Program-made: the position numbers and the translations under genes
In this document: positions 36,860-60,046 of the stretch, piece after piece
Layout: every line of letters starts with the position of its first letter
Position numbering within the stretch: the stretch's first letter is position 1
DNA from: Tridacna crocea
Taxonomy: Eukaryota > Mollusca > Bivalvia > Cardiida > Cardiidae
NCBI GenBank assembly: GCA_943736015.1
Contig: OX031063.1
Location: 39,820,672 to 39,884,671, forward strand
DNA length: 64,000 bases
Reading direction: 5' to 3'
The notes under the pieces: model-generated
The model's database searches: none
Told to the model about the DNA's origin: nothing
Seen by the model: the letters and a program-made list of their open reading frames with translations, nothing else

Positions 36860-38320
36860 TTAACCTTTTACCAAACAATGCTGACTTGATGACCCTGAGG
36901 AAGAAAGCTTTTGAAAACAGTGTGGGAAAAGGAAAAATGCTGGCAACCAGCATTTTCTTCTTTTTATACGCCCGTCGAAGACGGGACATATTATGGGATC
37001 ACACGTGGCGTCCGGGCGGGCGGGCGGCGTCCAGTTCTTTGTCCGGAGCATATCTACAAAACTATTCTAGCTAGGGTTATGAAATTTCATGGGTGGATAG
37101 ATCTCATGGAGGGGGAGTGCAGTGCACAGGAACCATAACTCTTGCTCGCTTAATTTTTGAGTTATTGCCCTTTGTTGTTTTTCATACTTGAATTTTGTCC
37201 GGAGCATATCTCCAAAACAATACTAGCTAGGGTTATGAAATTTCATGGGTGGATAGATCTCATCGAGGGGGAGTGCAGTGCACAGGAACCATAACTCTTG
37301 CATGCTTAATTTTTGAGTTATTGCCCTTTGTTGTTTTTCATACTTGAATTTTGTCCGGGGCATATCTCCAAAACTATACTAGCTAGGGTTATGAAATTTC
37401 ATGGGTGGATAGATCTCATCGAGGGGGAGTGCAGTGCACAGGAACCATAACTCTTGTTTACTTAATTTTTGAGTTATTGCCCTTTGTTGTTTTTCATTCT
37501 TGAATTTTGTCCGGAGCATATCTCCAAAATTATACTACCTAGGGTTATGAAATTTCATGGGTGGATAGATCTCATCGAGGGCGAGTGCAATGCACAGGAA
37601 CCATAACTCTTGCTTGCTTAATTTTTGAGTTATTGCCCTTTGTTGTTTTTCATTCTTGAATTTTGTCCGGAGCATATCTCCAAAATTATACTAGCTAGGG
37701 TTATGAAATTTCATGGGTGGATAGATCTCACCGAGGGGGAGTGCAGTGTACAGGAACCATAACTCTTGCTTGCTTAATTTTTGAGTTATTGCCCATTGTT
37801 ATTTTTCATACTTGAATTTTGTCCGGAGCATATCTCCAAAACTATACTAGCCAGGGTTATGAAATTTCATGGGTGGATAGATCTCATCAAGAGGAAGCGC
37901 AGTGCACAGAAATCATAACTCTTGCTTGCTTAATTTTTGAGTTATTGCCCTTTGTCGTTTTTCATACTTGAATTTTGTCCGGAGGATATCTCCAAAACTA
38001 TACTAGCTAGGGTTATGAAATTTCATGGGTGGATAGATCTCATCAAGGGGGAGCGCAGTGCACAGGAATCATAACTCTTGCTCGCTTAATTTTTGACTTA
38101 TTGCCTTTTGTTGTTTTTCATACTTGAATTTTGTCCGGTGCATGCCCCAGCTTTACAATTTGGGGTAAGACGGGCGTATCTTGCGACAATTTGCCGCTCT
38201 TGTTGCACTATGCTTTTATACTCTCAAAGAAAGTTCCAATCATTTGAGTAAACTGAATTTGCTGCCTGCAAACACTTTCAATTTAGACAAGTTTAAGATT
38301 CTGTTGTTTGGTATATCAAT
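36860..38320 (+). mobile_element. TH-MITE copy split by tandem-repeat element 1
   Basis: Left part TTAACCTTTTACCAAACAAT up to CATTTTCTTCTTTT; right part from GCACTATGCTTTTATAC to GTTTGGTATATC. Together they make one copy of normal size. Confidence 0.82.
36966..38204 (+). mobile_element. Helentron/pearl-like tandem-repeat element 1
   Basis: Starts ATACGCCCGTCGAAGACGGG (a GAA-loop hairpin) and ends GACGGGCGTATCTTGCGAC...CCGCTCTTGTT, so the first 11 bases recur inverted near the 3' end. The interior is seven units of exactly 156 bp, marked by TTTGTCCGGAGCATATCTCC at 37038 and every 156 bp to 38130. Non-coding. End structure and T-rich target fit Helentron-derived pearl/HINE elements of bivalves. 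Confidence 0.75.
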
Positions 38321-38334
38321 AAGAAAAGTTTGAA

Positions 38335-38612
38335 TATGTCAAAATAATTATTGGACTTGTCCAAAATGAGAGCATTTTGTTGGTTGACTTGAAAAACCTT
38401 GTAAGTACAGCTTGAAATAAGCTGTTGTAACACAAGTTTTTTGAAGTAAACTGATGGATTTCCAGAGTTTGAATAGGGATCCAATGATGATTGGTCTTGT
38501 GTTGGATTGGGAAATTTAGATAATGCTGATACCAGTATTTTCTCCTTATTCCACTTAGAAAAGTACTTTCCCACAGGTAGGTAGTTGAAATTCCGGATTG
38601 TTTAGTACCAAG
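38335..38612 (-). mobile_element. TH-MITE remnant
   Basis: TTGGACTTGTCCAAAATGAG, GATAATGCTGATACCAGTATT and CGGATTGTTTAGTACC; heavily decayed. Confidence 0.5.
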
Positions 38613-38794
38613 ACAAGCATACAATGCAAACTCCAAACCCAGTCTATGATGTACCTAGTTATTTGCTAATTGAATAATCACTCTCCTGCCTTTCGCTAAT
38701 TGGAGTTCCATAACAACCACCAATATTTGTAGCTACACCCACTGCTCCCAACACTAAAATAGCACTTGTTAACCATTTATCGAGCTGTCTGAAC
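38613..38794. other. Short intronic gap
   Basis: No element recognised. Confidence 0.4.
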
Positions 38795-38998
38795 TATCCC
38801 AGTCATAGGGATGGGGAAGAAAAAGGCTTATGGGAAAAATTGTGGAAAAAGGAGAAAATACTGATAATTACCATTTTCTTCTTTTTCCACAATGTTTTCT
38901 ACCAGTTCAAAAGGCAAAAATTGCATCATTTCATGTGTCCAAAGTGTTGTCAGTAAAAATTAATGCTTTCGTAGGGACCAGTCTCAAATTTTAATGTC
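38795..38998 (+). mobile_element. TH-MITE remnant
   Basis: AAAAATTGTGGAAAAAGGAG hairpin and ATTGCATCATTTCATGTGTCC flank B. Confidence 0.6.
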
Positions 38999-39099
38999 TT
39001 TATATACAAAATAATGAAATACGAACAAGAAGCATTGATAAATCATTGAAATTTTTAAATGTTTGTTACAAAACTAAAACTTGTTAAGGAGGAATTTGA

Positions 39100-39154
39100 A
39101 ATTATGTCTTCCAATGGGTTTTTACAGCACAGGATTGTTTGGTAAAGGGTTAAA
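39100..39154 (-). mobile_element. TH-MITE A-end fragment
   Basis: TTTACAGCACAGGATTGTTTGG then TAAAGGGTTAA. Confidence 0.5.
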
Positions 39155-39774
39155 TAAAGCACAGCAATTTTTGGTATAGGGTTTGATTATACACAGATCT
39201 GATGATTGCAGATGAAATGCTTTTAAATTAAAACTAATTAAACAAAAGCTTAGCTGGCCAAATGGAGCAATTTTCCACTCAATATATTTTTGAGCCATGT
39301 TCTAGCAAAAAAACGGTGAATGTTCTCTGTGTTATATGATACCAAGCAATCCATCACACAATCATGGATCCATAAGGCCTGTTTTGTATAAGAATTTTGT
39401 TCATGTCAAAAATTGACCAATGGCAAAAAGTCTCGACCCTGGTCAGTATGAGCGAACTGGGCAAACTGACCAAGATCATTCTGCATAAAGCCCTCTTTTC
39501 ACAGAGTATGGCTCTTTAGAATTTGTCATGGTCTTTCTGCAGTAGCAGAGGTTAGTAATATTCTTTGATAGATAGTTTGCCGCAATGTATGTTACACAGT
39601 CTTGGCACTTTTCAAAGCCTGCAAGCTTATAACCCATTTCTCGATTGTTAGTGACAGGAATATAATAGTAAGAAAGGTAGCCTTACGTGATTGATTTTGA
39701 TATACTGATTATACCCATACTTTCTTTTTACTGCAGAACCAAAGGTTTAGAGAAATAAAGAAGTCCCCTGTAGG
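39155..39774. other. Intron 2 segment without clear element
   Basis: One piece of the dispersed repeat (CTGGTCAGTATGAGCGAACTG...TGACCAAGATC, about 39435-39480); otherwise nothing recognised. Confidence 0.4.
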
Positions 39775-39968
39775 TTAACCCTGTAACCAAAGCACTTACA
39801 ACATGTGAAATGTTGGTAAAATGGTGTAGATTGTCTAGCCATGGATGAAAAACATTGTAGGAAAAGGAGAAGATGCTGGTTACCAGCATGTTCTCTTCCT
39901 ACTATGTTTTTTGAAACCCTTCTAAGTATAGTTTGCAAAAACTCAGGATTGTGTTTGGATAGAGTTAA
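39775..39968 (-). mobile_element. TH-MITE copy, degenerate, pair sharing TTAA
   Basis: TTAACCCTGTAACCAAAG to GTGTTTGGATAGAGTTAA. Confidence 0.72.
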
Positions 39969-40188
39969 CTTTCTACCACACAATCCTGACTTTTAACGAC
40001 CCTGAAAAAGAAAGCCTTGAAAAACATTGTGGGGAAAGGAGAAAATGCTGGTAACCAACATTTTCTCCTTTTCCCACAGTGTTTTCTACCCTTTCCAAAA
40101 TTTCAGTTTTTGATTCTCATTAATTGTATTTTGTCGTCTACAAAATTAATGACTAGTCCAAAATTTTGTCATTTGGAAAGAGTAAAGG
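39965..40188 (+). mobile_element. TH-MITE copy just upstream of exon 3
   Basis: TTAACTTTCTACCACACAAT to CATTTGGAAAGAGTAAA; good hairpin. Exon 3 starts 114 bp downstream. Confidence 0.82.
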
Positions 40189-40301
40189 GCTTGGTTACCC
40201 AAGGTGATTTCTCTTTTGTGGTGCAAAAGTCTGTGCAGGTCTTGTTTGATATTGTGAAAATGTAAGCACATCTAAGTTTTTTTCATTTGTTTCTTTTTCA
40301 G

Positions 40302-40363
40302 CAAGTGCCCTGAAAGAGTTTGGAAAGTTGATGAGTCGGATAGAGGATGAGAGAGAAAGAATG
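40302..40363 (+). CDS. GRAF-like BAR domain, exon 3 (codons 84-104)
   Basis: A strong pyrimidine tract ending TTCTTTTTCAG and a donor ATG|GTAAAG bound 62 bases, which complete the split Ser codon and add ALKEFGKLMSRIEDERERM. This matches the human SLQEFATVLRNLEDERIRM segment. It follows a 29-kb intron packed with transposons, and no other in-phase exon is needed between it and exon 2. Confidence 0.93.
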
Positions 40364-40789
40364 GTAAAGTACCTAATTAGTAGAAATTTAGATTTGGATT
40401 TTGAAACTCAGTAACACTTGTTTAGAATGAAAGCATGTAAGAGTTGAGCATTCAAGAAAGCATTTTCACACACAGCAAAAGTGCTCAATTTTTCAGATTG
40501 ATTCCAAAGACCTTACAGGGATGTACAAAGCTTTTTCCCCCCAGTAAATGTATTTCTTGGAAGAAAGTGCCCCTCTTTTCCTTTCTGTTTATTCTTCTTG
40601 ACAAACGTGTTATCCGTCATCATTGAAGTGGAGAAATGGAACAGGATCTCTTTTTTTGCAACATTCTGCAAGTTCATCTCCAAAGTTCCGCAATATTTCT
40701 TGCTGCTTCAATTACTCTATTTAGTAGACTAGACTGTTTCATATTTTTTGTTGTGGACTATAAGTCTTTTATCAAACATTTACAACATT

Positions 40790-40873
40790 TTTATGTCTGA
40801 AAAGTGAAAAAAAAAAGATGGTGGTAAGAGATATTTTCATCTTTTTCCACAATGCTTTCAACCCTTTCTAAGG
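40790..40873 (+). mobile_element. TH-MITE remnant
   Basis: AAAAGATGGTGGTAAGAGATATTTTCATC then TTTTTCCACAATGCTTTC. Confidence 0.45.
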
Positions 40874-41100
40874 TTAACTCTTTACCAAACAATCCCGACT
40901 TTTAACCACCCTGAGAAAGAAAGCTTTCGAAAACATTGTGGGAAAAGGAGAAAATGCTGGTAACGAGCATTTTCTCCTTTTCCCACTATGTTTCTACCCT
41001 TTACAAATCAAATTTCAGTTTCTGAGCAACATTTACCTAGTCGTCTGAAAATGCTTTTAATTTGGACTAGTCCAAAATTTTGTCATTTGGTAAGAAGTGA
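40874..41100 (+). mobile_element. TH-MITE copy
   Basis: TTAACTCTTTACCAAACAAT to ATTTGGTAAGAAGTGAA. Confidence 0.84.
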
Positions 41101-41120
41101 ATCCCATCAGTTTAGCCACA

Positions 41121-41200
41121 TTAACCCTTTACCTCACAATCACAGCTTTTAAGGACCCTAAGGAGAAATGGTTTTGGAAACACTATGGGAAAAATTCTGG
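41121..41200 (+). mobile_element. TH-MITE truncated to flank A and half hairpin
   Basis: TTAACCCTTTACCTCACAAT and GGAAACACTATGGGAAAAATTCTGG, then unrelated sequence. Confidence 0.6.
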
Positions 41201-41466
41201 TTTAGACCTAACAAAAATAGTCTGTGTTTAGGGTTTTGGTTTGATATGCTATAGGTAGGGAATTTTTTTTCCAGAAAATTTTTACATGCACCATGTGCCA
41301 AAAGATTTTTGATCGGACGGTGTGAGCTGAACGATAAGAGAGAGCAAAAATTTGGAAAATCCATCTGCTGAGGAAAAAACCTATGTAACTGCAGCTGTTA
41401 AAGGCTTTTACTTACAGTCTTATAACACTAATACAAGCTGTTGTAACTTTATTTTGAATAATACTT

Positions 41467-41696
41467 TTAACTCGTTACAACACAATCCCTACTTTTGATG
41501 CCCCTAGGAAAGAAGCCTTTAGAAAACATTGTGGGAAAAGGAGAAAATGCTGGTAACCAGCATTTTCTCCTTTTTCCCAAATGTTTTCTACCCTTCACAA
41601 AATAAATTTCAAATTTTTAGTCACTTTTCTTTTGTCATCTGCAAATGCTTTCGATTTGGACAAACCCCGAAATTTTTGATGTTTGGTAAAGGGTTA
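41467..41696 (+). mobile_element. TH-MITE copy, full length
   Basis: TTAACTCGTTACAACACAAT to GTTTGGTAAAGGGTTAT. Confidence 0.87.
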
Positions 41697-41749
41697 TCCA
41701 GATATGGGCAAGAATATGAACTTTTAGCAAACAGGTATTTTTACCAGCT

Positions 41750-41846
41750 GGAAACAAATTTCAATTCTTGAGTAGCATATATTTTGTTGTCTGCAGGTGC
41801 TTTCAATTTGGAGCAGTCTAAAATTTATCGTTTGGTATAGAATTAA
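41750..41846 (+). mobile_element. TH-MITE flank B fragment
   Basis: TTTTGTTGTCTGCAGGTGCTTTC to TTTGGTATAGAATTAA. Confidence 0.62.
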
Positions 41847-41917
41847 ATAAAGAAAAAAAACTAGACCATGAAAATAGACTGTTGCGATATTGTTTTTGTG
41901 GCTATGAAAGGCCATAA

Positions 41918-42117
41918 TCCTGAGGACCACAGCTGTTTAAAACATTGTGGGAAAAAGTACATAGAATTATGTAGATAACCTTCGTTTTCTGTTTCCCACA
42001 ATGTTGCTTTTACCATATCAATTATTTAAATCATCTTTTTGTCTACATTTCATTCTTTATGTGCAGATACGTTTGACTTGGACAAGTCTAAATTTACATC
42101 ATTTGGTAATGGGCTGA
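41918..42117 (+). mobile_element. TH-MITE copy, old
   Basis: ACATTGTGGGAAAAAGTACA hairpin and TCATTTGGTAATGGGCTGA at the right end. Confidence 0.6.
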
Positions 42118-42572
42118 GGATTTGGTAGATTACTACACTCTTTGAAAGTAATGTGGGAGAAATTGGCCAGTCAGTGTTTTAGACTGAAAAATCTTGTCCA
42201 GGATAATTTAGCCTGTCGAAAAAGATTTGATAGGACAATTTACGAAATAGATATCAGCAGCCAAAAGTAAACAATTTGATAGTAATAATACAGGCATATT
42301 TCATATCACTCCTTCATACCATTTAAAAGTATGGATATTATTGATAACATCTGACATTTTGTTACAATATAGTTTCCAAAGATGCAAAAAGTTCCTACAT
42401 GACTCAGTTATAAGATGTAGTGATCTGTGATTTCAAACCATTGTAGTTATTCAGTGTTGACCGATTACAGTGCTGACAGCACTTTGATTTTTCAATTGTT
42501 TGATAAAAAGTTTAGGATCTGCAGCATTTTCAAGGTAGAGCTGGGGAACCCTAAACAGATAATTTTTTGATA

Positions 42573-42720
42573 GGCCTAACCATTCTTTGCTCCTTTTCCC
42601 ATAATGTTTTCTAGCCTAATTTCATAGATAAATTTCGTAATTTGGGCTACCTGTAATTTGCTGCCTGCAAATCCTCTTAATTTGTAATAGTCTGAAATTT
42701 CATCTTCTGCTAACAAGTAA
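42573..42720 (+). mobile_element. TH-MITE 3' half
   Basis: TGCTCCTTTTCCCATAATGTTTTC and a decayed flank B (TGCTGCCTGCAAATCC). Confidence 0.55.
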
Positions 42721-42775
42721 ATTGCATAGTAGTAAACAAAGAAAGGAAACAGGTGAGAAGTATATTATCATTTTA

Positions 42776-43003
42776 ATCTTTATCAATGACAAAATTTTAG
42801 ACTTGTCCAAATTGAAAGCATTTTGCAGACAACAAAATAAAATTAATGTGACTCAAAAATTGAAACTTGACTTTAGAAGAGCAGAAACCATTGTGAGGAA
42901 AGGAGAAAATGCTGGTAGCCAGCATTTTCTCCTTTTTTCACAATGTTCTCAGGAGGCCTTCCTCTAGGTCGTAAAAACCAGGGATTGTTTGGAAAAGGGT
43001 TAA
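42776..43003 (-). mobile_element. TH-MITE copy
   Basis: TCAATGACAAAATTTTAGAC... to GTTTGGAAAAGGGTTAA; good hairpin, left terminus eroded. Confidence 0.8.
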
Positions 43004-43461
43004 CCCATTTTCTCTGAACAAGATCTTTCAAGGTTGTAACGAAATATGCACTTTCATGTTTTATGATCCCAAGGAAACTATTTATTCTACATGAAAGAAA
43101 TAGATACAATTAATTTTCTTTATCAGTATAGACAGAGAACTCTTTGTTTACTTTTCATTAAACAATTCAGACATTCTTCATGATTACCTCTTCAAGGCAC
43201 TCAAATCATGCTGAGGTTGGCTTTAGAGAGAGAGCTATTTAGACTTTAGTAATCTTGCCAAACACTGTAAATAATTTACCATTGAATTAGTAAAGCAATA
43301 ACAGGCCAATCATCAGTAAATAGAAAGACAAAGTGAAAAAAAGTGAGAAAAAAAAGAACTATTTGCTATTTCCTTGATGGGCTATGAAGCCTCTAAAATA
43401 TTGTAGACCTTGTGCCAGAATTTAACAGTGCTTTCTGGGAATGTCACATGATCATGAGTAT

Positions 43462-43719
43462 TCCATAACCACACAATCCCTACTTTGATGCCCCTGAGAA
43501 AAAAGCCTCTAGAAAACATTGTGGGAAAAGGAGAAAATGCTGGTAACCAGCATTGTCTCCTTTTCCCACAATGTTTTCTACCTGTCACAAAACAGATTTC
43601 AAATTTTCAGTCACTCTTATTTTATCGTCTACAAATGCTTTTCTCCTTTTCCTGCAATGTTTTCAAAAGCTGTCCCTCTCAGGGTCGTTAAAAGTCAGGA
43701 TTGTGTGGTGAAGAGTTAA
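43462..43719. mobile_element. TH-MITE mosaic A-hairpin-B-halfhairpin-A
   Basis: A normal + copy runs to ATCGTCTACAAATGCTT, where it switches to TTCTCCTTTTCCTGCAATG of a - copy and continues through flank A to GTGTGGTGAAGAGTTAA. The outer end of flank B is missing. Exon 4 lies 165 bp downstream. Confidence 0.68.
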
Positions 43720-43883
43720 AGTTGTGTCATCTAATATTGGGTTTAACTTTTGTATGTGTCTGTTACGGATTTTGTTAGCCGTTAATTTAGCAGAAACGTT
43801 AACAAGTAGGAAAGGTTTTAAAAATGTCTTGTACTTTCTGTTGGAATGCTGCTAATTGAATTATCGTTTCCTTTGAATTTCAG

Positions 43884-43955
43884 TTAGAGAAAGCCAATGA
43901 ACAGTTTATAAAGCCATTAGAGAACTTCAGAAAGCAACACATAGGATCTGCAAAG
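43884..43955 (+). CDS. GRAF-like BAR domain, exon 4 (codons 105-128)
   Basis: This 24-codon exon is phase 0 at both ends (acceptor TTGAATTTCAG, donor AAG|GTAAGA). It encodes LEKANEQFIKPLENFRKQHI then GSAK. The PLENFRK..IG.AK motif is nearly identical in GRAF1 (PLEKFRKEQIGAAK) and OPHN1 (PLENFRKEQIG), in the loop between BAR helices. Confidence 0.95.
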
Positions 43956-44207
43956 GTAAGAGTAGCCTGGCATTCAGGCCCTGCATTTAAGTCATTGTAA
44001 TAAACAAGGTACACAACTACAGCAAAGTCACAGAAATATGTGTTGTTACTTGCCCTTCTTCTGAAATACAGACATTTGGAAACCTTGAGAACACAGAGCT
44101 TTCGTTTTGCAGTTTTAATTGATGATTTTGTTTTAATGAAAGGGCTCTATTTAACGGACTGACACCAGTCTATGGTAAGAGTAACACCAGATGATCAAAT
44201 ACATAAC

Positions 44208-44436
44208 TTAACTCTTTACCAAACGACAAATTTTTAGACTGCTACAAATTGAAAGCATCTGCAGACAACAAAATTAATGTGGCTGAAAAAGTGAAATTTG
44301 TTTTGAGAAGGGTAGAAAACATTGTGGGAAAAGGAGAAAATGCTGGTCACCAGCATTTTCTCCTTTTCCTACAATGTTTTTAAAAGGCTTCTTTTTCAAG
44401 GTCGTTAAAGGTTGGGATTGTGTGGTAAAGAGTTAA
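44208..44436 (-). mobile_element. TH-MITE copy, full length
   Basis: TTAACTCTTTACCAAACGAC to TGTGGTAAAGAGTTAA, 229 bp; both ends of the CTCTTTACC type. Confidence 0.9.
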
Positions 44437-44606
44437 TTTGCTGTATCTACCATTTTTTGTACATTCTAGATTTCCAACTTTTTTCCCACGATTATGCCTT
44501 GCTTCTCTATGTCAAGATGTAAAAAATGTGTGCATTTGAATGATGCTCATACGAGATATATTTTCCATTATGTGTCCTCCTTTGTAATTTATGAAGAGAA
44601 AAGTAT

Positions 44607-44777
44607 TCTATATCAAACCGTATCAGGTGTGAAGGACATGAGAAAGAAGGCTTTTGAAAATATTGGGAGAAAAGTACAAAATGCTGGTTACCAGCATTTA
44701 TTCCTTTTCCCACAATATTTTGATAAGCCTTTTACTCCTAGGGTCGTTGAAAATTATGATTGATTGGGTAAAAGGAT
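44607..44777. mobile_element. TH-MITE mosaic with flank A on both sides
   Basis: GAGAAAGAAGGCTTTTGAAA, hairpin around CTGGTTACCAG, then AAGCCTTTTACTCCTAGGGTC in inverse order. A short all-inverted-repeat derivative. Confidence 0.65.
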
Positions 44778-47799: not shown

Positions 47800-48745
47800 T
47801 TGTCAGCTAACCTGAGCACAAAGTGAGCTTTTGTAATCATGCTGTGTCTGTCTTCTGTTGTGTGTCAACAACTTTTACTCTGTGTAGGCGTTGGAGGCCA
47901 CATTTTCAGTCTCATGAAATTTTGTCAGAATAATTATCGTGATAATTTCTTGGTCGAGCTTGAAAATGGGTCAGGTGGGGTCTGAATGTGTGTCTTGATA
48001 ATAAGTCACATGAGTTCCAAAATGAGTCATGTTGAATGAAAAACTTAGTCACTTGGTCAAAGCAAAGGATATCTGTGCACACAATTTAGAGGCCATGTTT
48101 TCAGTCCAATTTTCAGTTCAATATCCCTGAAAGTTTGTCAGAATGTTTGTGTTGATTATGTGTCATTGGAGTTTAAGTGTTTCAGTGGTCAAAAACCAGG
48201 TCACTATGTCAAATCTCACAAAAACCTGTAGATGTCACATTTTCAGTCAAATACTCATGAAAGTTTGTTGAAATGCCTGTCTTGATGTTATGTGAGAGCG
48301 CTTTGAAATTGGGTGATGTTTGCTTATAAACTGGGTCACTGGGACCAATCTTTGCTCTAGAGGCCACATTTTCAGTAAAATCTTATGAAACTTGGTCAAA
48401 ATGTTTCTCTTGACAACAGCTTAGATATCTTTGAAAATGGGTCATGTCAGGTCAATAACTGGGTTATTAGGTCAAATGTTTGAAGAACTTTGTGTATGCT
48501 CTAGAGGCCACATTTTCAGTCTAATACGTATGAAACTTGGTCAGAATGTTTTCTCGACAACATCTTAGATATCTTTAAAAATGAGTCGTGTGAGGTCAAT
48601 GAGTCGTGTGAGGTCAATATCTATGTTACTAGGTCAAATGTTTGAAAAACCTTGTGTATGCTCTAGAGGCTACATTTTGAGTCTAATACCTATGAAACTT
48701 GGTAACTTGGTCTGAATGTTTTTCTTCACAACATCTTTGGTAAGT
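47800..48745 (+). repeat. Divergent tandem repeat array, units of about 140-195 bp
   Basis: Six units each start near CTAGAGGCCACATTTTCAGTC (47894, 48089, 48228, 48357, 48501, 48661) and contain ATGAAACTTGGTCAGAATGT and CTGGGTTACTAGGTCAAATG. The block opens with CTGAGCACAAAGTGAGCTTTTG. It is a different, older tandem-repeat element than the 156-bp class. Confidence 0.65.
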
Positions 48746-50313: not shown

Positions 50314-51943
50314 TTTACCCTTTCCCAAACAATCCCTGGTTTTTACAGGTCTGGAATAGTAGACTTTTGAAAACGTTGTGGGAAAAGGAGAAAATGCTTG
50401 TAACCAGCATTTTCTCCTTTTTATACGCCCGTCGAAGACGGGACGTATTATGGGATCACCCGTGCCGGGCGGGCGGGCGTCCGGGCGGGCGGCGTCCAGT
50501 TCTTTGTCTGGGGCATATCTCCAAAACTATTCTAGCTAGGGTTATGAAATTTCATGGGTGGATAGATCTCATGGAGGGGGAGTGCAGTGCACAGGAATCA
50601 TAACTCTTGGTTGCTTAATTTTTAAGTTATTGCCCTTTGTTGTTTTTCATACTTGAATTTTGTCCGGGGCATATCTCCAAAACTATACTAGCACGGGTTA
50701 TGAAATTTCATGGGTGGATAGATCTCATCAAGGGGGAGTGCAGTGCACAGGAATCATAACTCTTGGTTGCTTAATTTTTGAGTTATTGCCCTTTGTCATT
50801 TTTCATACCTGAATTTTGTCCGGAGCATATCTCCAAAAATATTCTAGCACGGGTTATGAAATTTCATGGGTGGATAGATTTCATTGAGTGGGGGTGCAGT
50901 GCACAGGAATCATAACTCTTGCTTGCTTAATTTTTGAGTTAGTGCCCTTTGTTGTTTTTCATACTTGAATTTTGTCAGGTGAATATCTCCAAAATTATAC
51001 TAGCTAGGGTTATGAAATTTCATGGGTGGATAGATCTCACCAAAGGGGAGTGCAGTGTTCAGGAATCATAACTCTTGCTTGCTTAATTTTTTAGTTATTG
51101 CCCTTAGTTGTGTTTCATACTTGAATTTTGTCCGCAGCATATCTCCTAAAGTATACGAGCTAGGGTTATGAAATTTCATGGGTGGATAGTTCTCACTGAG
51201 TGGGAGTGCAGTGCACAGGAATCATAACTCTTGCTTGCTTAATTTTTGAGCTATTGCCCTTTGTTGTTTTTCATACTTGAATTTTGTCCGGAGCATATCT
51301 CCAAAACTATACTAGCTAGGGTTATGAAATTTCATGGGTGGATAGATCTCATCAAGGGGGAGTGCAGTGCACAGAAGCATAACTCTTGCTTGCTTAATTT
51401 TTGAGCTATTGCCCTTTGTTGTTTTTCATACTTGAATTTTGTCCGGAGCATATCTCCAAAATTATACTAGCTAGGGTTATGAAATTTCATGGGTGGATAG
51501 ATCTCATCAAGGGGGAGTGCAGTGCACAGAAGCATAACTCTTGCTTGCTTAATTTTTGAGTTATTGCCCTTTGTTGTTTTTCATACTTGAATTTTGTCGG
51601 CATCATATCTCCAAAATTATACTAGCTAGGGTTATGAAATTTTATGGGTGGATAGATCTCATCAAAAGGATGTGCAGTGCATATGAATCATAATTGTTGG
51701 TGACTTAATTTTTTAGTTGTTGCCCTTTGTTGTTTTTCATACTTGAATTTTGTCCGATGCATGCCCCAGCTTTACAACTTGGGGTAAGACGGGCGTATCT
51801 TGCGACAGTTTGCCGCTCTTGTTCCACAATGTTTTCTACCCTATCACAGACAGGAATCACCTTTTCAGCAACAGTTGAATTGTCGTCTGCAAATGCTTTC
51901 AGTTTGGTCTTGTCCTAAAGTTTGTCTTTTGGGAAAGGGTTAA
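50314..51943 (+). mobile_element. TH-MITE (subfamily 3) split by tandem-repeat element 2
   Basis: Left part 50314-50422 (TTTACCCTTTCCCAAACAAT to CTCCTTTTT) and right part 51824-51943 (CCACAATG to TTTGGGAAAGGGTTAA) add up to 229 bp, the exact family length. Confidence 0.88.
50423..51823 (+). mobile_element. Helentron/pearl-like tandem-repeat element 2
   Basis: Same ends as element 1 (ATACGCCCGTCGAAGACGGG ... GACGGGCGTATCTTGCGAC...GCTCTTGTT). Eight units of 156 bp (two have lost one base), marked by GAATTTTGTCCGGAGCATAT at about 50.66 kb onward. GC-rich GGGCGGGCG run after the 5' hairpin. Confidence 0.78.
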
Positions 51944-51949
51944 GTGTGA

Positions 51950-52090
51950 TTCATGGGATTTTTCTTTGAAAAGGTAAAAAAAATATTTTTTGGGGGAAAG
52001 AGGAAATGGTTGTAAGCAGCATTTTTCCTCATTTCCAATGATGTGTTTTACGTTTTCAAAGACAAATTCCAAATTCTGGTTCTGAATTGT
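51950..52090 (+). mobile_element. TH-MITE remnant
   Basis: GGGGGAAAGAGGAAATGGTTG, TTCCTCATTTCC and a worn flank B. Confidence 0.45.
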
Positions 52091-52131
52091 AAATGGTAGA
52101 AGATATTGGGATTATATACTTTTAAACTACA

Positions 52132-52357
52132 TTAACCCTTTACCAAACAATACCTGGTTTTTATGACCCTGAGATAGAGGCCTTTTGAAAACCTTGTGGG
52201 AAAAGGAGAAAATGCTGGTAAACAGATTTTCTCTTTTTCTCACAATGTTTTCTACCCTCCTGGAAACAATTTTCAATTTTTGAGTCACATTTATTTTGTC
52301 ATCTGCAAGTGCTTTCAATTTAGACCAGTGTAAAATCTGTCATTTGGTAAAAGGTAA
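52132..52357 (+). mobile_element. TH-MITE copy
   Basis: TTAACCCTTTACCAAACAAT to ATTTGGTAAAAGGTAAA. Confidence 0.84.
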
Positions 52358-52565
52358 AAACAAGACTGGCAGTATTTCTTATATTAGACTGGTTCAAAGT
52401 GAACATAGACAAATCATATTGGGAATCATCTTTGAAAGTGTAGGAAGTGTTGTAGGAAAGAGAGGAAATGCTGGTTAGTAGCATTTTTTCCTAGTTCCAA
52501 TTTTTTTCAAAGACTTCTTCCTTCAAGTTGTAAAAAAAATCCAGGATTTTTTTTCATAGAGTTAA
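52358..52565 (-). mobile_element. TH-MITE copy, degenerate, upstream of exon 7
   Basis: TTAGACTGGTTCAAAGTG, GGAAATGCTGGTTAGTAGC and TTTCATAGAGTTAA. Confidence 0.62.
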
Positions 52566-52645
52566 CCAAGAAGGACTACCATAAATCAAAGACATTGAAT
52601 TCCATCTCTGTCTGCTAAATTAATGTTTTTGTATCTTTTTTTCAG

Positions 52646-52688
52646 TTACTGGTGTTTATGTATAGTCTACTTACGTTTTACCATGAAG
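52646..52688 (+). CDS. GRAF-like BAR domain, exon 7 (codons 200-214)
   Basis: A 43-base exon with a strong acceptor (TTTTTTTCAG) and a G|GTAAGG donor encodes LLVFMYSLLTFYHE and the first base of Gly. The human counterpart is LLAFLQGLFTFYHHG. It is flanked within about 80 bp and 45 bp by two hairpin MITEs. Confidence 0.92.
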
Positions 52689-52731
52689 GTAAGGTTTCAG
52701 TTTTGTTATTCATGGAAACAATGCAAATGGT

Positions 52732-52959
52732 TTAACTCATTATCAAACAACTGAATTTTAGGCTTGTCCAAATGACAGCATTTGCAGACGACACAATAAA
52801 AGTGACTGAAAAGTTGAAATTTGTTTTGTGAAGGGAAGAAAACTTTGTGGGAAAAGGAGAAAATGCTGGTTACCAGCATTTTCTCCTTTTCCCACAATGT
52901 TTTCTAAAGGGCTCTTTCTCCGGGTCGTCAAAAGTAGGGATTGTGTGGTAATGGGTTAA
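52732..52959 (-). mobile_element. TH-MITE copy downstream of exon 7
   Basis: TTAACTCATTATCAAACAAC to TGTGGTAATGGGTTAA; near-perfect hairpin, starting 44 bp after the exon. Confidence 0.89.
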
Positions 52960-53084
52960 AAAGGATGGATCATTTTTAAAGAAATGAGTCTTGCTGTTTG
53001 AAAAGGAGGCTTAATACATCTACAAAAATATGAAGCATTGTGAGAAAAGTAGTTGGTGGCTTTGGAAAGAAAGTTGTGTTAGTA

Positions 53085-53182
53085 CTGGTGTAAGAAAGCC
53101 AGGAAACACGTGTGTCATCGACCGCCATGATATGACCTTAGCTGTTAAAGTGGCATTAAACCCCAATACAACCAACCAAATC
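53085..53182 (+). repeat. SINE 3' end of a second type
   Basis: CATGATATGACCTTAGCTGTTAAAG, GTGGCATTAAACCCC and an AACCAACC tail, typical of a mollusc SINE terminus. Confidence 0.5.
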
Positions 53183-53349
53183 AGGCTGTTCAGACTACAC
53201 AGAATGAACTGGATCAGATTTTTTTTTCTTTTGGTCACTTTTGTTTGTGTCAAAGGAAACCCCCATAGCTTTATCAGTTGACGAAATCGATTTTATGAAA
53301 CCATATATGATGACTTGCTTGGTGTAATGCATCTAAGAAATTTATACAT

Positions 53350-53577
53350 TTAACTCTTTACCACACAATCCCGACTTTGACGACCCTGAGAAAGAAGCCT
53401 TTTGAAAACCCTGTGGGAAAAGTAGAAAATGCTGGTAACCAGCATTTTCTCCTTTTCTCACCATGTTTTCTTCACTTCCTAAAACAAATTTCAATTTTTC
53501 AGTCACCTTTATTTTGTCGTCTGCATATGCTTTCAATTTGGACCAGTCTATGATTTTGTCGTTTGGTAAAGAGTTAA
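53350..53577 (+). mobile_element. TH-MITE copy
   Basis: TTAACTCTTTACCACACAAT to TTTGGTAAAGAGTTAA. Confidence 0.89.
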
Positions 53578-53649
53578 CCCACTTTTACTGGGGTGCAACT
53601 CAATTAATGGTATCATTTACATTTTATCACACGGGCATATATTTTACTC

Positions 53650-53863
53650 ATTTACTCTTACCAGATGACAGATAGGTAGACTTAAACATTTGATGACAAC
53701 AAATTGAATGCGACTCAATTGACTCGGAAGGTTAAAAAAAATAGTGGTCGGAAAGGGAAAAATGCAAGTTACTAGTATTAGTCAATTATCATTTTCAAAG
53801 AAAGTTTTTAAAAGCTTTCTGCTTACGCTGGTTTAAACATGAGATTTTTTGCTAAAGGTTTAA
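53650..53863 (-). mobile_element. TH-MITE copy, old
   Basis: CTTACCAGATGACAGATAGG to TTTTGCTAAAGGTTTAA; shares its right TTAA with the next copy. Confidence 0.65.
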
Positions 53864-54311
53864 CCCTTTACAACACAATGCTGACTTTTCAACAACACCA
53901 GGGAAGAAGCCTTTTGAATACTTGCGGGAAAAGGAGAATATGCTGGTAACAAGCATTTTTTTTCTTTTTCCACAATCTTCTCTATTCTGTCACAGACAAA
54001 TTGCACCGTTTAACCCTTTCCCAAACAAGCCCTGGTTTTTACATGTCTGCAGTAAAAGTCTTTTGAAAACACTGTGGGAAAAGGAGAAATTGCTTGTAAC
54101 AAGCAATTTCTCCCTTTCCCACAGTGTTTTCTGCCCCTTCGGATGATTTTCTGCCATTGTTATGAAAGCTAGAATTGTTGTCTGCAAACTCTTTGAGTTC
54201 GGAAGAGTCTAAAATTTGTTGTTTGGGAAAGAGTTAAACTACATTGAAATTGTCATCTGCAATTGCTCTCAGTATGGACAGGGCTAAAATTTTGTAATCT
54301 TGTAAGGTTAA
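53860..54311 (+). mobile_element. TH-MITE host copy containing a nested copy
   Basis: Outer parts 53860-54013 and 54238-54311 form one copy (TTAACCCTTTACAACACAAT to TTGTAAGGTTAA). The interruption lies in flank B between AATTGCACCG and ACTACATTGAAATTG, which join across one TTAA exactly as in the intact copy at 9518 (AATTGCATCA..GAGCCACTTTG). Confidence 0.87.
54010..54237 (+). mobile_element. TH-MITE, subfamily 4, nested in another TH-MITE
   Basis: TTAACCCTTTCCCAAACAAG to TTTGGGAAAGAGTTAA. Hairpin GAGAAATTGCTTGTAACAAG with perfectly matched opposite arm. Inserted at TTAA with the site duplicated on both sides. Confidence 0.9.
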
Positions 54312-54581
54312 AGAGGGAAAAAGAACAACCAGTCAGTAATGTTGTTAGTGTTTGGAGAAATCTTTTTATTTCAAAATTTTACTTTTGATAAATATGTTGT
54401 CCAGTTTCATCTCTCGATCATAAAGATTATATCCTAAAGAAAACCAGTATGCTCATTGTGATTATGTTTATCACACAAATGGTGAATTTTGTGACTCTAT
54501 GACTATAGTTTCAGTATATTTTGAGAATTCAAGGAGGATTCTTTTAAAGTTTATATCCAGTTTGATTGTTTTTCTATGCAG

Positions 54582-54643
54582 GTCATGAAACTGCTGCAGA
54601 TCACATGCTGTACTTGAAAACACTTCAGCAAACACTACAAAAG
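54582..54643 (+). CDS. GRAF-like BAR domain, exon 8 (codons 214-234)
   Basis: The 62 bases complete the split Gly codon and encode HETAADHMLYLKTLQQTLQK. This aligns with human GYELAKDFGDFKTQLTISIQ in the last BAR helix. The acceptor is TTTCTATGCAG and the donor AAG|GTAATT (phase 0). Confidence 0.9.
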
Positions 54644-54689
54644 GTAATTATGTTTGTCTTAACCTTGAAAAACATATAGTTTAATTCTT

Positions 54690-54845
54690 AAGAATGAAGA
54701 ATCCTGATATTTAAAAGAAAAGGCTTTTAAAAACATCATTTGAAATGGAGAATGATGCTAACCAGCATTTTCCTTTTTCCACCTTGCTGTTTTCCATTTT
54801 CCACTATGTTTTCAATCCTTCCATATACAAATATCCACCACTAGA
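54690..54845 (+). mobile_element. TH-MITE remnant downstream of exon 8
   Basis: AAAGGCTTTTAAAAACATCA, GATGCTAACCAGCATTTTCC and a duplicated TTTTCCAC arm. Confidence 0.5.
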
Positions 54846-54899
54846 GCGCTAAATGAAAGAATGAGGTAAATCATGAACAAACTGGACCTACTAGTAGTG

Positions 54900-55015
54900 T
54901 TTGACCCTTTATCAAGTAATCCATTACTAAATGACCCCAAAGAAGAAACCTGTTAAAAACATGTCAGGTAAAAGAAAAAATACTAGTAACCAACATGTTC
55001 TCCATTTAGCTGAAA
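54900..55015 (+). mobile_element. TH-MITE 5' half remnant
   Basis: GACCCTTTATCAAGTAATCC, AAGAAGAAACCTGTTAAAAAC and ACTAGTAACCAAC. Confidence 0.5.
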
Positions 55016-55225
55016 CTGACAATGATTTTTGTCATAAAATGATATTGTGAAAAGGAAAATTCAAGATCACAATGTTCTGATCTGTCAGATTTTTAGGCAG
55101 TTCATCTGTAAAAAGCTTTTCATATAGGTTGCCTTTGGTATTGAAAAATAAAACAATAAAGCAGAACACATTGAATTAAAAATTGTTGACAAAACCCACT
55201 AGACAATAAATATCTGCTATTTCAG

Positions 55226-55300
55226 ACCAGAACTAATTTTGAAGCCACAAAAGAACAAGCTGAGAATCTCATGTTAAAGATGTTAGAAGCTAGAGGCTCT
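55226..55300 (+). CDS. GRAF-like BAR domain, exon 9 (codons 235-259)
   Basis: A 25-codon exon, phase 0 at both ends, with acceptor TGCTATTTCAG and donor TCT|GTAAGT. It encodes TRTNFEATKEQAENLMLKML then EARGS. The family has TRNRFEGTRSEVESLMKKMK here, the C-terminal end of the BAR domain just before the linker to the PH domain. Confidence 0.93.
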
Positions 55301-55330
55301 GTAAGTATAGATGAATTTCACCAATTGGTT

Positions 55331-55525
55331 GTAAGCTCTTTATAATCAATCCTTTTGATGACCCAGAAGAAGAAAGTTTTAGAGACTTTTGAGAAAAGAA
55401 GAAAATGATGGTAACAAGAGTTTTCTTCTTTTCACACAATGTTTTCTATGGTATTAAAGATTAAACATAGAGCCATGTTTGATATTATATCTGCAATGCT
55501 TTCTACATGGATGATACTAAAGTTA
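55331..55525 (+). mobile_element. TH-MITE remnant downstream of exon 9
   Basis: CTCTTTATAATCAATCC, GAAAATGATGGTAACAAGAG and ATATCTGCAATGCTTTC. Confidence 0.58.
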
Positions 55526-55584
55526 TGTAAAGAATTTATTTTTTTTCCAGGCAGAAAAAAATCTTAGATAATGTCTGATTTTTA

Positions 55585-55803
55585 CAGTATTTGAGGGCAT
55601 TTTCGGCCCGTTGAAATTGAAAGCATTTGTAGATGACAAATTGAATGTGGCTCAAAAAGTGAAACTTCTCTTTGAAAGTATTGAAAACATTGTGGGAGTA
55701 GGAGAAAATGCTGGTTACCAGCATTTCTCCTTTGTCCACAATATTTTCAAAAGCTTTCTTTTTCAGGGTTGTTAAAAGTCAGAATCATGTTATAGAGGGC
55801 TAA
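55585..55803 (-). mobile_element. TH-MITE copy, left end lost
   Basis: TTGAAATTGAAAGCATTTGTAG, good hairpin, and GTTATAGAGGGCTAA. Confidence 0.7.
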
Positions 55804-56324
55804 GTTTTCGGGTGATTTTGGAAATCGTGACGATCTGTAAGTTCAGGGAGAACAATTTCTCCACTGTTTGTTTTTTAAGTCTTAGGAAGAACTAAAATCG
55901 GGTCTTCATGCCATGTTAAGGAAATGAATTTAGAGGCGGATTCTAAAATAAGATGTACCTTTGCTGTGGGAATATCTGAATGTTATGTAATAGAAGAAAC
56001 TGTGAAAGGTAGCACATGTGTTTTGTTGCAGTGTGACGTTTTTATTCTTTTGGCATGGTTATTGCTTATGATAGATACTTGATATTAGACATAGGTTATT
56101 ATAAATCATTTGCTGTGGTGGATGTAAGATTGAAAGAGTGATGTATTGTGATAGAGATATCAGATCGATGTTTCACAAATTGTTTTTGCTCCCTTTATAG
56201 CGCAATATGAATATTCAAAAGTGTAGGTATATATTGTGGTCTTTCAAACTTTGACCTTTTATGTAAAACTTGTCTGAATTCAAATCATGAGGAGACGACA
56301 TTACAAGGTACAACTAAAACAATT
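55804..56324. other. Intronic stretch without recognised element
   Basis: No exon or repeat recognised. Confidence 0.4.
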
Positions 56325-56425
56325 GAAGTTTTTTGCAAAAGTTTGGAAAATATTGTGAGGGGGAAAAGGTGAAAATGCTGGTGTCCAGCATTCCACCCGC
56401 CCACTCTGCTCCTCTCCAATGTTTC
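56325..56425 (+). mobile_element. TH-MITE half copy
   Basis: GGAAAATATTGTGAGGGGGAA, AATGCTGGTGTCCAGCATT, then CTCCAATG. Confidence 0.5.
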
Positions 56426-56453
56426 CATTACAAGAGGTGCAAGAACAAAGGAG

Positions 56454-56682
56454 ATAATCCTTTACTCCATAGATACTCATTTCACTGCATTGCTTGTAGG
56501 AGCCTTTGGAAAACATTGTGGCAAAAGGTGAAATTGCTCGTGACGAGCAATTTTACCTTTTGCCACAATGTTTTCTACACTATCAAAAGGTGTCATATAC
56601 ACACAAGAAACGGCGTCATCCTTGCTGTTATTTAGGGTCAATTAGAGATACTATAGAAATGCCTTATGGGGTAAAGGGAAAA
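56454..56682 (+). mobile_element. TH-MITE, subfamily 2, full length
   Basis: ATAATCCTTTACTCCATAGA to TATGGGGTAAAGGGAAA, 229 bp; hairpin arms TGGCAAAAGGTGAAATTGCT and inverse match almost perfectly. Confidence 0.87.
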
Positions 56683-56714
56683 GTTTCTCCTTTAGATTTC
56701 GATATGTACTTTTC

Positions 56715-56835
56715 CTACAATATTTATACCCATGCAATACTAATGCCATGACTTGAGTGGGGTTACCAGTGAATTTGTCATCTTCAAATGCTATCAGGTT
56801 GGACATGTACATACAGAATTTTATTCAATGATAAG
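56715..56835 (+). mobile_element. TH-MITE 3' half remnant
   Basis: TTTTCCTACAATATTTATACCC and TTGTCATCTTCAAATGCTATC. Confidence 0.5.
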
Positions 56836-56959
56836 AAATTGGTCAGATAGGTAATCACAGAGTTGGGCCAGAGCTGAATATGGTGCTTTCTTTGTTGTAT
56901 TGTATCTTTTCACAATTACCCTTGTTATGGTAGTTACTTTACTATGTTACATTTGTTCC

Positions 56960-57078
56960 TATAGCAAAAAGTGCCAAGTTTTGACAGTTCTTATGAAGGA
57001 GACTTTTGAACAATGTAATGTCATGTTTTTGGAAAATGAGGTGCTTGGTATTAGCATTTTGAACATTTTCCACAATGT
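56960..57078 (+). mobile_element. TH-MITE remnant
   Basis: GTGCCAAGTTTTGACAG, AAGGAGACTTTTGAAC and TTTTCCACAATGTTTTAC. Confidence 0.45.
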
Positions 57079-57097
57079 TTTACTCTTGTTAACAGCA

Positions 57098-57483
57098 TTA
57101 ATCCTTTCCAAACAATCCCTGTTTTTTAGGACTTAGAGGAAGAATGTTTTCTACCCTTCTTAACTCATTACCAAACAACAAAATTTTAGGTTTGTCCAAA
57201 TCGAAAGCATTTGCAGACGACAAAATAAAAGTGATTGAAAATTTGAATTTTGTGTAGTGAAGGGTAAAAAACATTGTGGGAAAAGGAGAAAATGCTGGTT
57301 ACCAGCATTTTCTCCTTTTACCACAATGTTTTCTAAAGGCTTCTTTCTCAGGGGCGTCAAAAGTAGGGATTGTGTGGTGACGGGTTAAATCAGATTTCAA
57401 TTTTTGAGTCACCTCTATTTTTCATCTGCAAATGCTTCCAATACTGGACTAGTCATAAATTTTGTTGTTTGGTAAAGACTTAA
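57098..57483 (+). mobile_element. TH-MITE host copy (hairpin deleted) containing a nested copy
   Basis: Outer parts 57098-57163 and 57389-57483: TTAATCCTTTCCAAACAATC... GTTTTCTACCCTTC | ATCAGATTTCAATTTTTGAG... GGTAAAGACTTAA. The hairpin had been lost (AGAAG joined to AATGTTTTC). Confidence 0.82.
57160..57388 (-). mobile_element. TH-MITE copy nested in another TH-MITE
   Basis: TTAACTCATTACCAAACAAC to TGTGGTGACGGGTTAA, 229 bp, TTAA duplicated. The host junction matches the uninterrupted order CTACC..TTCC-AAATCAGATTTC seen at about 61120. Confidence 0.9.
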
Positions 57484-57588
57484 GGCAGAAAAAAAAAGTG
57501 GAGAACAAATGACATGAAGTATAGATAGAAGTTTTATTAGGTTAGAAGTTGTGTAATTTTGTTGTGATTGTCAAATACTTCCTAGCAG

Positions 57589-57651
57589 CTGGTGGGAAGT
57601 TCGTACCAGAATGCGTCCTGGCCAGACCTTATAAACCAAACTGCTGACAAG
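57589..57651 (+). CDS. Candidate short exon after the BAR domain (21 codons)
   Basis: An open stretch of 63 bases, phase 0 on both sides, is bounded by TTCCTAG-CAG and by AAG|GTATTT. It would read LVGSSYQNASWPDLINQTAD plus K directly after exon 9. The acceptor is a tandem NAG-NAG (TAGCAG), so one Gln codon more or less is possible (start 57586). I find no match to it in vertebrate GRAF or OPHN1, whose BAR-PH linker is short. It may be a lineage-specific or alternative exon, or a chance splice-like segment. Confidence 0.35.
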
Positions 57652-57841
57652 GTATTTTATGCTATGTTCACTGATGGTTCATCGTTGCATCATGAAAACC
57701 TCACTTTTTTTGTTACCAAATGTACCTTCTGGAAATATACTGTAAAACCTGTAGTGGCAGCCTTTATTAAGCAAGCAGCTTCAAGTAAGCAAGCATTTAT
57801 TGCATTTTCAAACATCACAAATGTGTTTAAATGTACTTGTA

Positions 57842-58044
57842 TTAACTTTTTACCAAATGACAAAAGTGTAGAGTGAAAGCATTTGGGCATGATATTTTTA
57901 ATGTCACTCAAATGATAGGGTAGGAAATAGTGTGGAAAAAGGAAAAAATGCTGTTTACCAGCATTTTCTACTTCTCCCACAATATTTTCAAAAGGCTTCT
58001 TTTTCAAGGTGGTAAGAACATTTGATTGTGTTGAAGAGGGTTAA
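57842..58044 (-). mobile_element. TH-MITE copy
   Basis: TTAACTTTTTACCAAATGAC to GTGTTGAAGAGGGTTAA. Confidence 0.77.
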
Positions 58045-58124
58045 GCAAGTACATTTCAGTGTCCCTAGGGTGCTTGCTTACATAAGTTTGACTGTACATC
58101 CAAGTGCATGTTTTGGCTTAGTAC

Positions 58125-58190
58125 TGATTTACTCCTCTTCCCTCAGTGTTTTCAACAGATGCATGAGTGGAAAGTCATATTGTATGGTTA
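58125..58190 (-). mobile_element. TH-MITE A-end half
   Basis: TACTCCTCTTCCCTCAGTGTTTTC and GTCATATTGTATGGTTA. Confidence 0.45.
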
Positions 58191-58399
58191 CGCAACAATA
58201 ACAAGATTAAAATGAATTGTAGCTACACGTTCTCGACTGTAAACATGTTTTTGTTTCTTCTCTTTGTTTGAAAAACAGCTGGGGGAAAGAAATTTCTCCA
58301 AATTAGCAATGCTTCATTTTGTCGCAGATGTAACAACTTTATAGAACTAGTTTTTGCCCATGTTATATCAGGCTTATTGACATAATTAACTGTTGCACA

Positions 58400-58500
58400 T
58401 GACATATGAAAGCAATTGGGAGAAAGGAGAAATTGATATAAACAAACACTTGCTTCTTTTGCCACAATGTTTCAGAAGTTTCCTGCAGTAAGGTGAACAA
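58400..58500 (-). mobile_element. TH-MITE remnant
   Basis: GGGAGAAAGGAGAAATTGATA, CTTCTTTTGCCACAATGTTTC. Confidence 0.45.
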
Positions 58501-58521
58501 TTTTCTACTAGAGGTGGTGAG

Positions 58522-60046
58522 TTAACTCTGCACCGAACAAAAAATTTCAGACTTGTTCCAAATGAGAGTATTAATCAGCATGCATCTTCGTAGATGGCAT
58601 GTCAGAGAAAGACCTAATGATATTGCTTGGTTTCATAAGGTTACAAAACACTTGGGAATAGGAGAAAATGCTGGCCACCACCATTTTCTCCTTTTTATAC
58701 GCCCGAAGGGTCGTATTATGTTATACCCCCGGTCGTCCGTCTGTCTGTCTGTCTGTCCGTCCGTCCGTTAGCAATTTCTTGTGTGTGCAACTCCTCCTAC
58801 AGTTTTCATCGGAATTATTTGAAACTTGCCACAATGAATCTCCATGATGTCTAGTTGTGCACCTGGGTCTTAGAATTTTTATCGCTGTTTGCGTTCCAAA
58901 ATTATCTGCCCTTGATTTCTGAAATAACCAACTTCTCACTTTGAATTTTTGTTCAGCCATAACTTCCATACCATAAAAGGTACCAAATTGAAACTACATA
59001 CACTGATAGAACACATTATGGACAAGTGCAGTGCACATGAAACATAACTCTGCCACTTTTATTTTTTGAGTTATTGCCCTTTGTTAATTTTCACTTTGAA
59101 TTTTTGTCCAGGCCATAACTTCCAAACTATAAAACCTAATAACTTGCAACTTCATACACTGATAGAACACATTTTGGAGAAGTGCATTGCACATGAACCA
59201 TAACTCTGCCACAGTTATTTTTTGAGTTACAGACCTTTGTTAATTTTCAGTTTGAATTTCTGTCTAGGCCATAACTTCTAAAGTATAAAAGCTGTTAATT
59301 GGAACTTTATACACTGATAGAACACATTTTGGAGAAGTGCATCGCACATGAAACATAACTCTGCCACTTTTATTTTTTGAGTTATTGCCTTTTGTTAATT
59401 TTCAGTTTGAATCTTTGTCCAGGCCATAACTTCCGAACTATAAAAGCTAATAACTTGCAACTTAATACACTGATAGAACACATTATGGAGAAGTGCATTG
59501 TTCATGAACCATAACTCTGCGACCTTTATTTTTTTAGTTATTGCCCTTTATTGATTTTCAGTTTGAATTTTTGTCCAGGCCATAACTCCCAAACTTTAAA
59601 ACCTATCATCTTGAAACTTCAAAGACTAATAGAACACATTATGAAGAAGTGCACTGCACAAGAACCATAACTCTGCCGTCCTTCCTTTTTAGTTATTGCC
59701 CTTTGTTAGTTTTCTCTTTGAATTTTTGTCTGGGCCATAATTTCATAAATATAAAAGCTATGATTTTGAACCTTTCAAAACTGATAGAACACCTTGTGGA
59801 GAACAGCAATTCACAAAATTTGTAACTGTGCCACCTTTCTTTTTTAGCTATTGCCCTTTAATATTTTTCACATATCATGGAGATTAACTACCGTTCATTC
59901 ATGGCCCTTCCGTCATTTCAACTCATTTCACTGACAAGCCCCTTCGGGCGTATATGCGCCGCTTTGCGGAGCTCTTGTTCTTCAATGTTTTTTAAAGCCA
60001 TGGTCTTCAGGTGATTAAAATCAAAGGTTTTTTAGTAAAGGGTTAA
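58522..60046 (-). mobile_element. TH-MITE copy split by tandem-repeat element 3
   Basis: Left part TTAACTCTGCACCGAACAAA to CATTTTCTCCTTTTT, right part CTTCAATGTTTTTTAAAGCC to TAGTAAAGGGTTAA; summed length about 242 bp. Opposite orientation to the other two interrupted hosts. Confidence 0.82.
58697..59979 (+). mobile_element. Helentron/pearl-like tandem-repeat element 3 (divergent subfamily)
   Basis: Starts ATACGCCCGAAGGGTCGTAT and ends CCTTCGGGCGTATATGCGCC, a CCGCTTTGCGG hairpin, then CTCTTGTT. A (CTGT/CCGT)n microsatellite follows the 5' end. About six units of 155-156 bp with GAATTTTTGTCCAGGCCATA marks at 58951, 59106, 59262, 59417, 59573 and 59728. Unit sequence differs from elements 1 and 2 but shares GTGCA.TGCACA and GAGTTATTGCCCTTTGTT blocks in the same order. 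Confidence 0.75.

Follow-up and report, generated by a model that had tools for sequence, protein, structure and literature searches.

Three tandem-repeat elements of 1239, 1401, and 1283 bp, all on the + strand, were analyzed in a 64,000-nucleotide stretch of Tridacna crocea contig OX031063.1 (hereafter the window; positions are counted from its first letter), where each of them interrupts a copy of an abundant miniature inverted-repeat transposable element (MITE). By their structure, the inserts are classified as non-autonomous Helentron/Helitron2-type elements (HINEs, of the DINE-1/pearl/Cg_HINE kind) of two subfamilies. Below we report their anatomy, the position at which they enter their hosts, the evidence that they arrived separately, and the target sequence that may have guided them.

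Elements, hosts, and relatives

The elements, their parts, and the interrupted MITE copies are located as follows.

36861..36965, + strand: host MITE 1, 5' part (model 1-108; right arm interrupted)
36966..38204, + strand: HINE-type element 1 (possibly also including the T at 36965 as an additional 5' base)
36966..36991, + strand: element 1, 5' hairpin (subterminal inverted repeat ATACGCCCGTC, GAA loop, partly complementary repeat)
37008..37032, + strand: element 1, short microsatellite-like stretch rich in G+C, separating the 5' hairpin from the array, as read from the sequence
37038-38143, + strand: element 1, array of 7.1 repeats of 156 bp
38169..38179, + strand: element 1, 3' inverted repeat GACGGGCGTAT, lying internally with 25 bp between it and the 3' end
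38180..38204, + strand: element 1, 3' tail with a weak hairpin (folding against shuffles) and terminal CTCTTGTT
38205..38316, + strand: host MITE 1, 3' part (model match 108-219 at 38204-38313)
50315..50422, + strand: host MITE 2, 5' part (model 3-107, match 50317-50421; right arm interrupted)
50423..51823, + strand: HINE-type element 2
50423-50433 and 51788-51798, + strand: element 2, 5' and 3' inverted repeats
50503-51756, + strand: element 2, array of 8.1 repeats of 156 bp
51824..51943, + strand: host MITE 2, 3' part (model resumes at 103, match 51818-51940)
58522..58696, - strand: host MITE 3, model 69-225 (match 58695-58525; left arm interrupted)
58697..59979, + strand: HINE-type element 3, diverged subfamily
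58697-58710 and 59940-59953, + strand: element 3, 14-bp inverted repeats
near 58731-58768, + strand: element 3, GTCY microsatellite preceding the array
58936-59871, + strand: element 3, array of 6.0 repeats of 156 bp
59954-59979, + strand: element 3, 3' hairpin
59980..60046, - strand: host MITE 3, model 1-69 (match 60045-59978)

At their 5' ends, elements 1 and 2 carry the hairpin-forming sequence TATACGCCCGTC-GAA-GACGGGACRTAT and element 3 carries TATACGCCCGAAGGGTCGTAT, also hairpin-forming; the minimum free energies of these hairpins in elements 1, 2, and 3 (-5.9, -9.8, and -4.9 kcal/mol) were equaled or bettered by 3, 0, and 4 of 200 shuffles. The inverted repeats, 11 bp long in elements 1 and 2 and 14 bp in element 3, are placed asymmetrically, with the 5' copy at most 1 nt from the end and the 3' copy 25-26 bp inside the 3' end. 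Element 3 has a clear 3' hairpin (-6.0 kcal/mol, matched by 5 of 200 shuffles). The list of the window's 45 longest stop-to-stop frames contains none longer than 96 aa that touches an element; this one is shared with the host, and the next measures 90 aa. When all three elements were compared with the window after masking of the three copies, nothing further was significant (best E 0.02), and the three are therefore taken to be the whole complement of the family within the window.

The MITE matches were collected with an iterated profile of a 225-bp palindrome, accepting E values up to 0.1 and dropping any match overlapped for at least 40% by a better one. The resulting 148 matches, weak fragments included, cover 37% of the window and often lie side by side; 59 of them are near full length, and 90 palindromes retain both arms (hosts included, with up to 4 mismatches per arm). 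The inverted termini (TTAACCCTTTACCA / TGGTAAAGAGTTAA) and the TTAA duplication, present at both ends of 30 of the 59 near full-length copies, make this a TTAA-type MITE, probably of the piggyBac-like superfamily.

Element 1 splits the MITE at model position 108, element 2 at about 107, and element 3 at 69, the breakpoints on the two sides being 108/108, 107/103, and 69/69. On the inverted host, position 69 mirrors 108 with respect to the palindrome center, and the local sequence on the element strand is therefore the same, CATTTTCTYCTTTTT^. Directly 5' of every element stands CATTTTCT(C/T)CTTTTT, and the MITE resumes with GCACTATG after element 1, CCACAATG after element 2, and CTTCAATG after element 3. 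The elements end in TTGTT, which the resuming MITE matches overlap by 1, 6, and 2 bases in local alignment. TTTT precedes all three, and apart from a T that may belong to either side at the element ends there is no target duplication. The possibility that this MITE site is generally prone to breakage was considered and is not supported, the 120 internal match ends (hosts included) being spread over the model, with 7 in bin 66-71 and 3 in bin 108-113.

A preliminary description of the window, made from the sequence alone, had listed the three elements at the coordinates found here, at one nucleotide of the MITE arm, with one host inverted, one insert from a diverged subfamily, and more than 60 MITE copies; all of this holds, the MITE count being as stated or higher. 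Its three resuming MITE sequences stand in shuffled order. Its suggestion of a rolling-circle-type element agrees with the anatomy and with published descriptions.

We assigned the inserts to the HINEs because their anatomy matches the published layout: a 5' hairpin, a microsatellite, central repeats, a 3' inverted repeat, and a T-rich target. The same layout and T-rich targets are given for HINEs in the excerpts of PMC4067079 drawn on here, and the comparisons that follow are likewise with excerpts of the papers named. Cg_HINE of Crassostrea gigas (PMC7492417) resembles our elements in its 11-12 bp subterminal inverted repeat with a complementary inverted repeat, its microsatellite (often GTCY), its central repeats (about 140-180 bp), its 3' subterminal repeat with a palindrome, its T-rich or TT target without target-site duplication, and its landing in other transposable elements, mostly DNA transposons; however, repeated use of one MITE site is not reported in the excerpt, and the likeness is one of layout. 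With Drosophila DINE-1 (PMC2374699, PMC4067079) the elements share the layout, the ATACCC start of the subterminal repeat (in DINE-1 such as ATACCCGTTACTC), the GTCY-rich microsatellite, the 3' stem-loop (clear here in element 3), and the TT target within WTTTT. For the central repeats the likeness is by layout. The subterminal repeat here is ATACGCCCG, and TTTT is preceded by C here and by W in DINE-1. Helitron2 elements (PMC3627910, PMC5148889) have comparable asymmetric inverted repeats (0-2 bp from the 5' end and ~20-30 bp from the 3' end), hairpins at both ends, a 5' T, and a TTTT / T/C junction without duplication, as in Helitron-1N1_CRe of Chlamydomonas, which joins between TTTT and T/C (PMC3627910). 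Unlike Helitron2, the T. crocea elements contain a central tandem array, show an apparent one-base difference at the 3' junction, and, in the case of elements 1 and 2, have a 3' hairpin that is weak. Among the bivalve elements pearl and DTC84, described in PMC7492417 and PMC5139131, pearl shares ~160-bp central repeats and a HINE-like frame, a likeness by description. Our verdict is that the inserts are by structure a known kind of element, most likely obeying a known kind of target rule. At the level of the titles and abstract openings listed, which is not proof of absence, literature searches turned up no report of Helentron or Helitron insertion at one MITE-arm or palindrome site.

Three separate insertions

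BLAST aligns elements 1 and 2 over 1178 columns, of which 89 differ (92.4% identity), and their aligned ends agree in 74 of 80 bases at the 5' side and 77 of 80 at the 3' side, whereas their hosts are only 73.6% identical (156 of 212 pairwise-aligned columns, 56 differing; Fisher P = 1.7e-13 with columns taken as independent). Between elements 1 and 3 the repeats are ~70% identical. The three hosts were also aligned together with the 59 near full-length MITE copies; in that multiple alignment the host pairs have 66.8, 61.7, and 62.2% identity, which places them at percentiles 15.9, 5.9, and 6.6 of the 1711 non-host pairs. Each host is closest to a different MITE copy, in every case an uninterrupted one; for host 2 it is the near full-length copy at 26031-26256 (91.6% identical). 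Among the 61 other copies, host 2 is only the 50th closest to host 1, and host 1 the 53rd closest to host 2. Because elements 1 and 2 are far more alike than their hosts, and because the hosts are nearest to different copies, the elements entered the MITE in three separate insertions and are not one copied composite; separate events had been proposed in the preliminary description, and the congruent divergence of hosts and inserts that would speak against them is contradicted by these figures.

Target sequence and choice of the site

To express how often a given target falls on the MITE arm, sites were counted on both strands after the inserts were removed and the flanks joined, with the host sites counted; f is the arm share and f^3 its cube. 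The target rules were picked after the data had been seen, and there are three events only.

TTTT^[T/C]: arm 129 of 1691 sites, f^3 = 4.4e-4
TTTT^T: arm 26 of 880, f^3 = 2.6e-5
CTTTT^[T/C]: arm 119 of 354, f^3 = 0.038
CTTTT^T: arm 22 of 163, f^3 = 0.0025
YYCTTTT^[T/C]: arm 109 of 193, f^3 = 0.18
YYCTTTT^T: arm 18 of 67, f^3 = 0.019
12-mer TTTTCTYCTTTT^[T/C]: arm 88 of 93, f^3 = 0.85
12-mer TTTTCTYCTTTT^T: arm 13 of 14, f^3 = 0.80

The arm holds another TTTT^[T/C] site, CATTTT^, which is present 130 times, against 129 for the used site, and was used in none of the three cases. A pure T-run rule is too weak, since its f^3 lies between 2.6e-5 and 4.4e-4 and the CATTTT^ site was left unused; a T-run with a few pyrimidines in front largely suffices. 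Between a 7-base and a 12-base rule three events do not distinguish. The published Helitron2 target fits the arm, the MITE offering CTYCTTTT^C/T exactly at the insertion point.

Taken together, we consider it likely that HINEs of two subfamilies inserted independently into three copies of the abundant TTAA-flanked MITE by following a T-rich target rule. The MITE is a common landing place by sequence because it supplies 129 of the 1691 TTTT^[T/C] sites, and 109 of the 193 with YYC before them. In the mechanism that we infer, an autonomous partner elsewhere in the genome would supply a Rep-helicase recognizing the 5' hairpin or inverted repeat of the element and its 3' end; the element would be copied by rolling-circle replication, and the copy would be joined, with no target duplication, into T-rich DNA just past TTTT (then T or C). 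Both strands of the MITE palindrome bear the pyrimidine tract CATTTTCTYCTTTT(C/T); the palindrome would serve as the landing site, and its primary sequence, rather than a cruciform structure, would guide the choice. With one MITE nucleotide used repeatedly, such a short T-rich rule could let an amplified MITE become a common harbor for rolling-circle elements, which bring satellite-like arrays into it.

Several observations weigh against this explanation. TTTT alone is not the whole rule, an equally frequent CATTTT^ site having been passed over three times out of three, and if TTTT^T is required, f^3 is still as low as 0.0025 for CTTTT^T and 0.019 for YYCTTTT^T. The entire target case consists of three events. 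The 3' hairpins of elements 1 and 2 are weak (-2.1 kcal/mol each, equaled by 33 and 43 of 200 shuffles), and no Rep or helicase match and no autonomous Helentron was found in the 10 open reading frames scanned among the 45 listed for the window. Finally, all three hosts have a fifth T left of the insert, and the interrupted arm resumes one base short, with GC, CC, and CT, which plain insertion into TTTT^C does not predict. Their partner arms all have CCC after the T-run, and where a non-host TTTT arm faces a CCC partner (81 cases), the next base is C in 69, T in 9, A in 2, and G in 1; the nearest relative of host 2 reads CTTTTCCCACAATG. These data hint either at the choice of TTTTT variants on three occasions (about 0.001 by frequency) or at the alteration or loss of a single base upon insertion. 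The one-base-short resumption is seen at 36965/38205, 50422/51824, and 58696/59980.

A stricter form of the T-rich rule, with which it overlaps, is possible although clearly less probable: this HINE lineage may have evolved an extended target of about TTTTCTYCTTTT^, kept across both subfamilies, so that the MITE arm would be its principal landing site genome-wide and the element a transposon living on a transposon by sequence. All three copies used the site, it is common to two subfamilies that are ~70% identical in the repeats, and the 12-mer has by far the highest f^3 whether T or C, or T alone, is allowed next; yet the shorter YYCTTTT^[T/C] already yields 0.18, and relatives use TT or TTTT targets in the excerpts of the cited papers. 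The site preference proposed in the preliminary description therefore stands as a plausible preference for the arm sequence, resting on three events. If the extended target is real, this would be a rolling-circle element specialized on another transposon, and if genome-wide copies confirm the motif, the MITE copies would be natural replicates for the study of Helentron target choice and junction chemistry.

That the MITE cruciform or hairpin, rather than the sequence, steers insertion appears unlikely. The consensus palindrome does form a hairpin of -38.1 kcal/mol, in which a perfect 32-bp stem is closed by a 3-nt loop, and the inserts lie at mirror points of both arms. However, the insertion point falls within the paired stem of the folded consensus, 18 nt from the loop, and would stay paired on extrusion, which argues against the extrudable single-stranded target that had been suggested; the stem's other TTTT^[T/C] went unused all three times. 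With their flanks joined, the hosts rank 33, 61, and 63 of the 90 palindromes by DNA folding energy, two being weaker than the median and one stronger, an argument of little weight since decay of the arms after insertion could have the same effect. Spread of a single MITE-plus-element composite, or of the element between MITE copies by gene conversion, would explain the identical insertion point and the close relationship of elements 1 and 2, but it is highly improbable. Against it stand the divergence of elements and hosts, the distant mutual ranks of hosts 1 and 2, and the inverted host 3 with its diverged element; to the extent that data of this type allow, they contradict the threefold copying of one composite.

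Further searches and other features of the window

Viral contigs were scanned for patterns of the element ends, the repeat core, the MITE loop, and the junction, and only one loose pattern matched; its 15 matches were judged unrelated from the 20-30 flanking bases on each side. Eight genome-contig matches to an 18-mer pattern, in bacterial or archaeal records, were set aside by record title alone. A search of phage sequences with element 1 only returned no match, and scanning the window for Rfam families and tRNAs gave no hits.

The window also contains two arrays with a 15-16 bp unit, at 28739-28879 and 30992-31116, lying ~2.1 kb apart in opposite orientation, their units being CGTTTCGCCCCC-like and, as the reverse complement, GGGGCGAAACGACTA-like. 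A tandem array of period 144 (1.8 copies) at 48346-48618 had no HINE-family match in the masked-window search and represents another repeat family. The short stretch at 49658-49780 matches the APPL-protein BAR domain (PF16746, E 2.4e-9) and is possibly a host-gene exon; on the minus strand, a similar short piece of DNA is present at about 49738 and again at about 56436.

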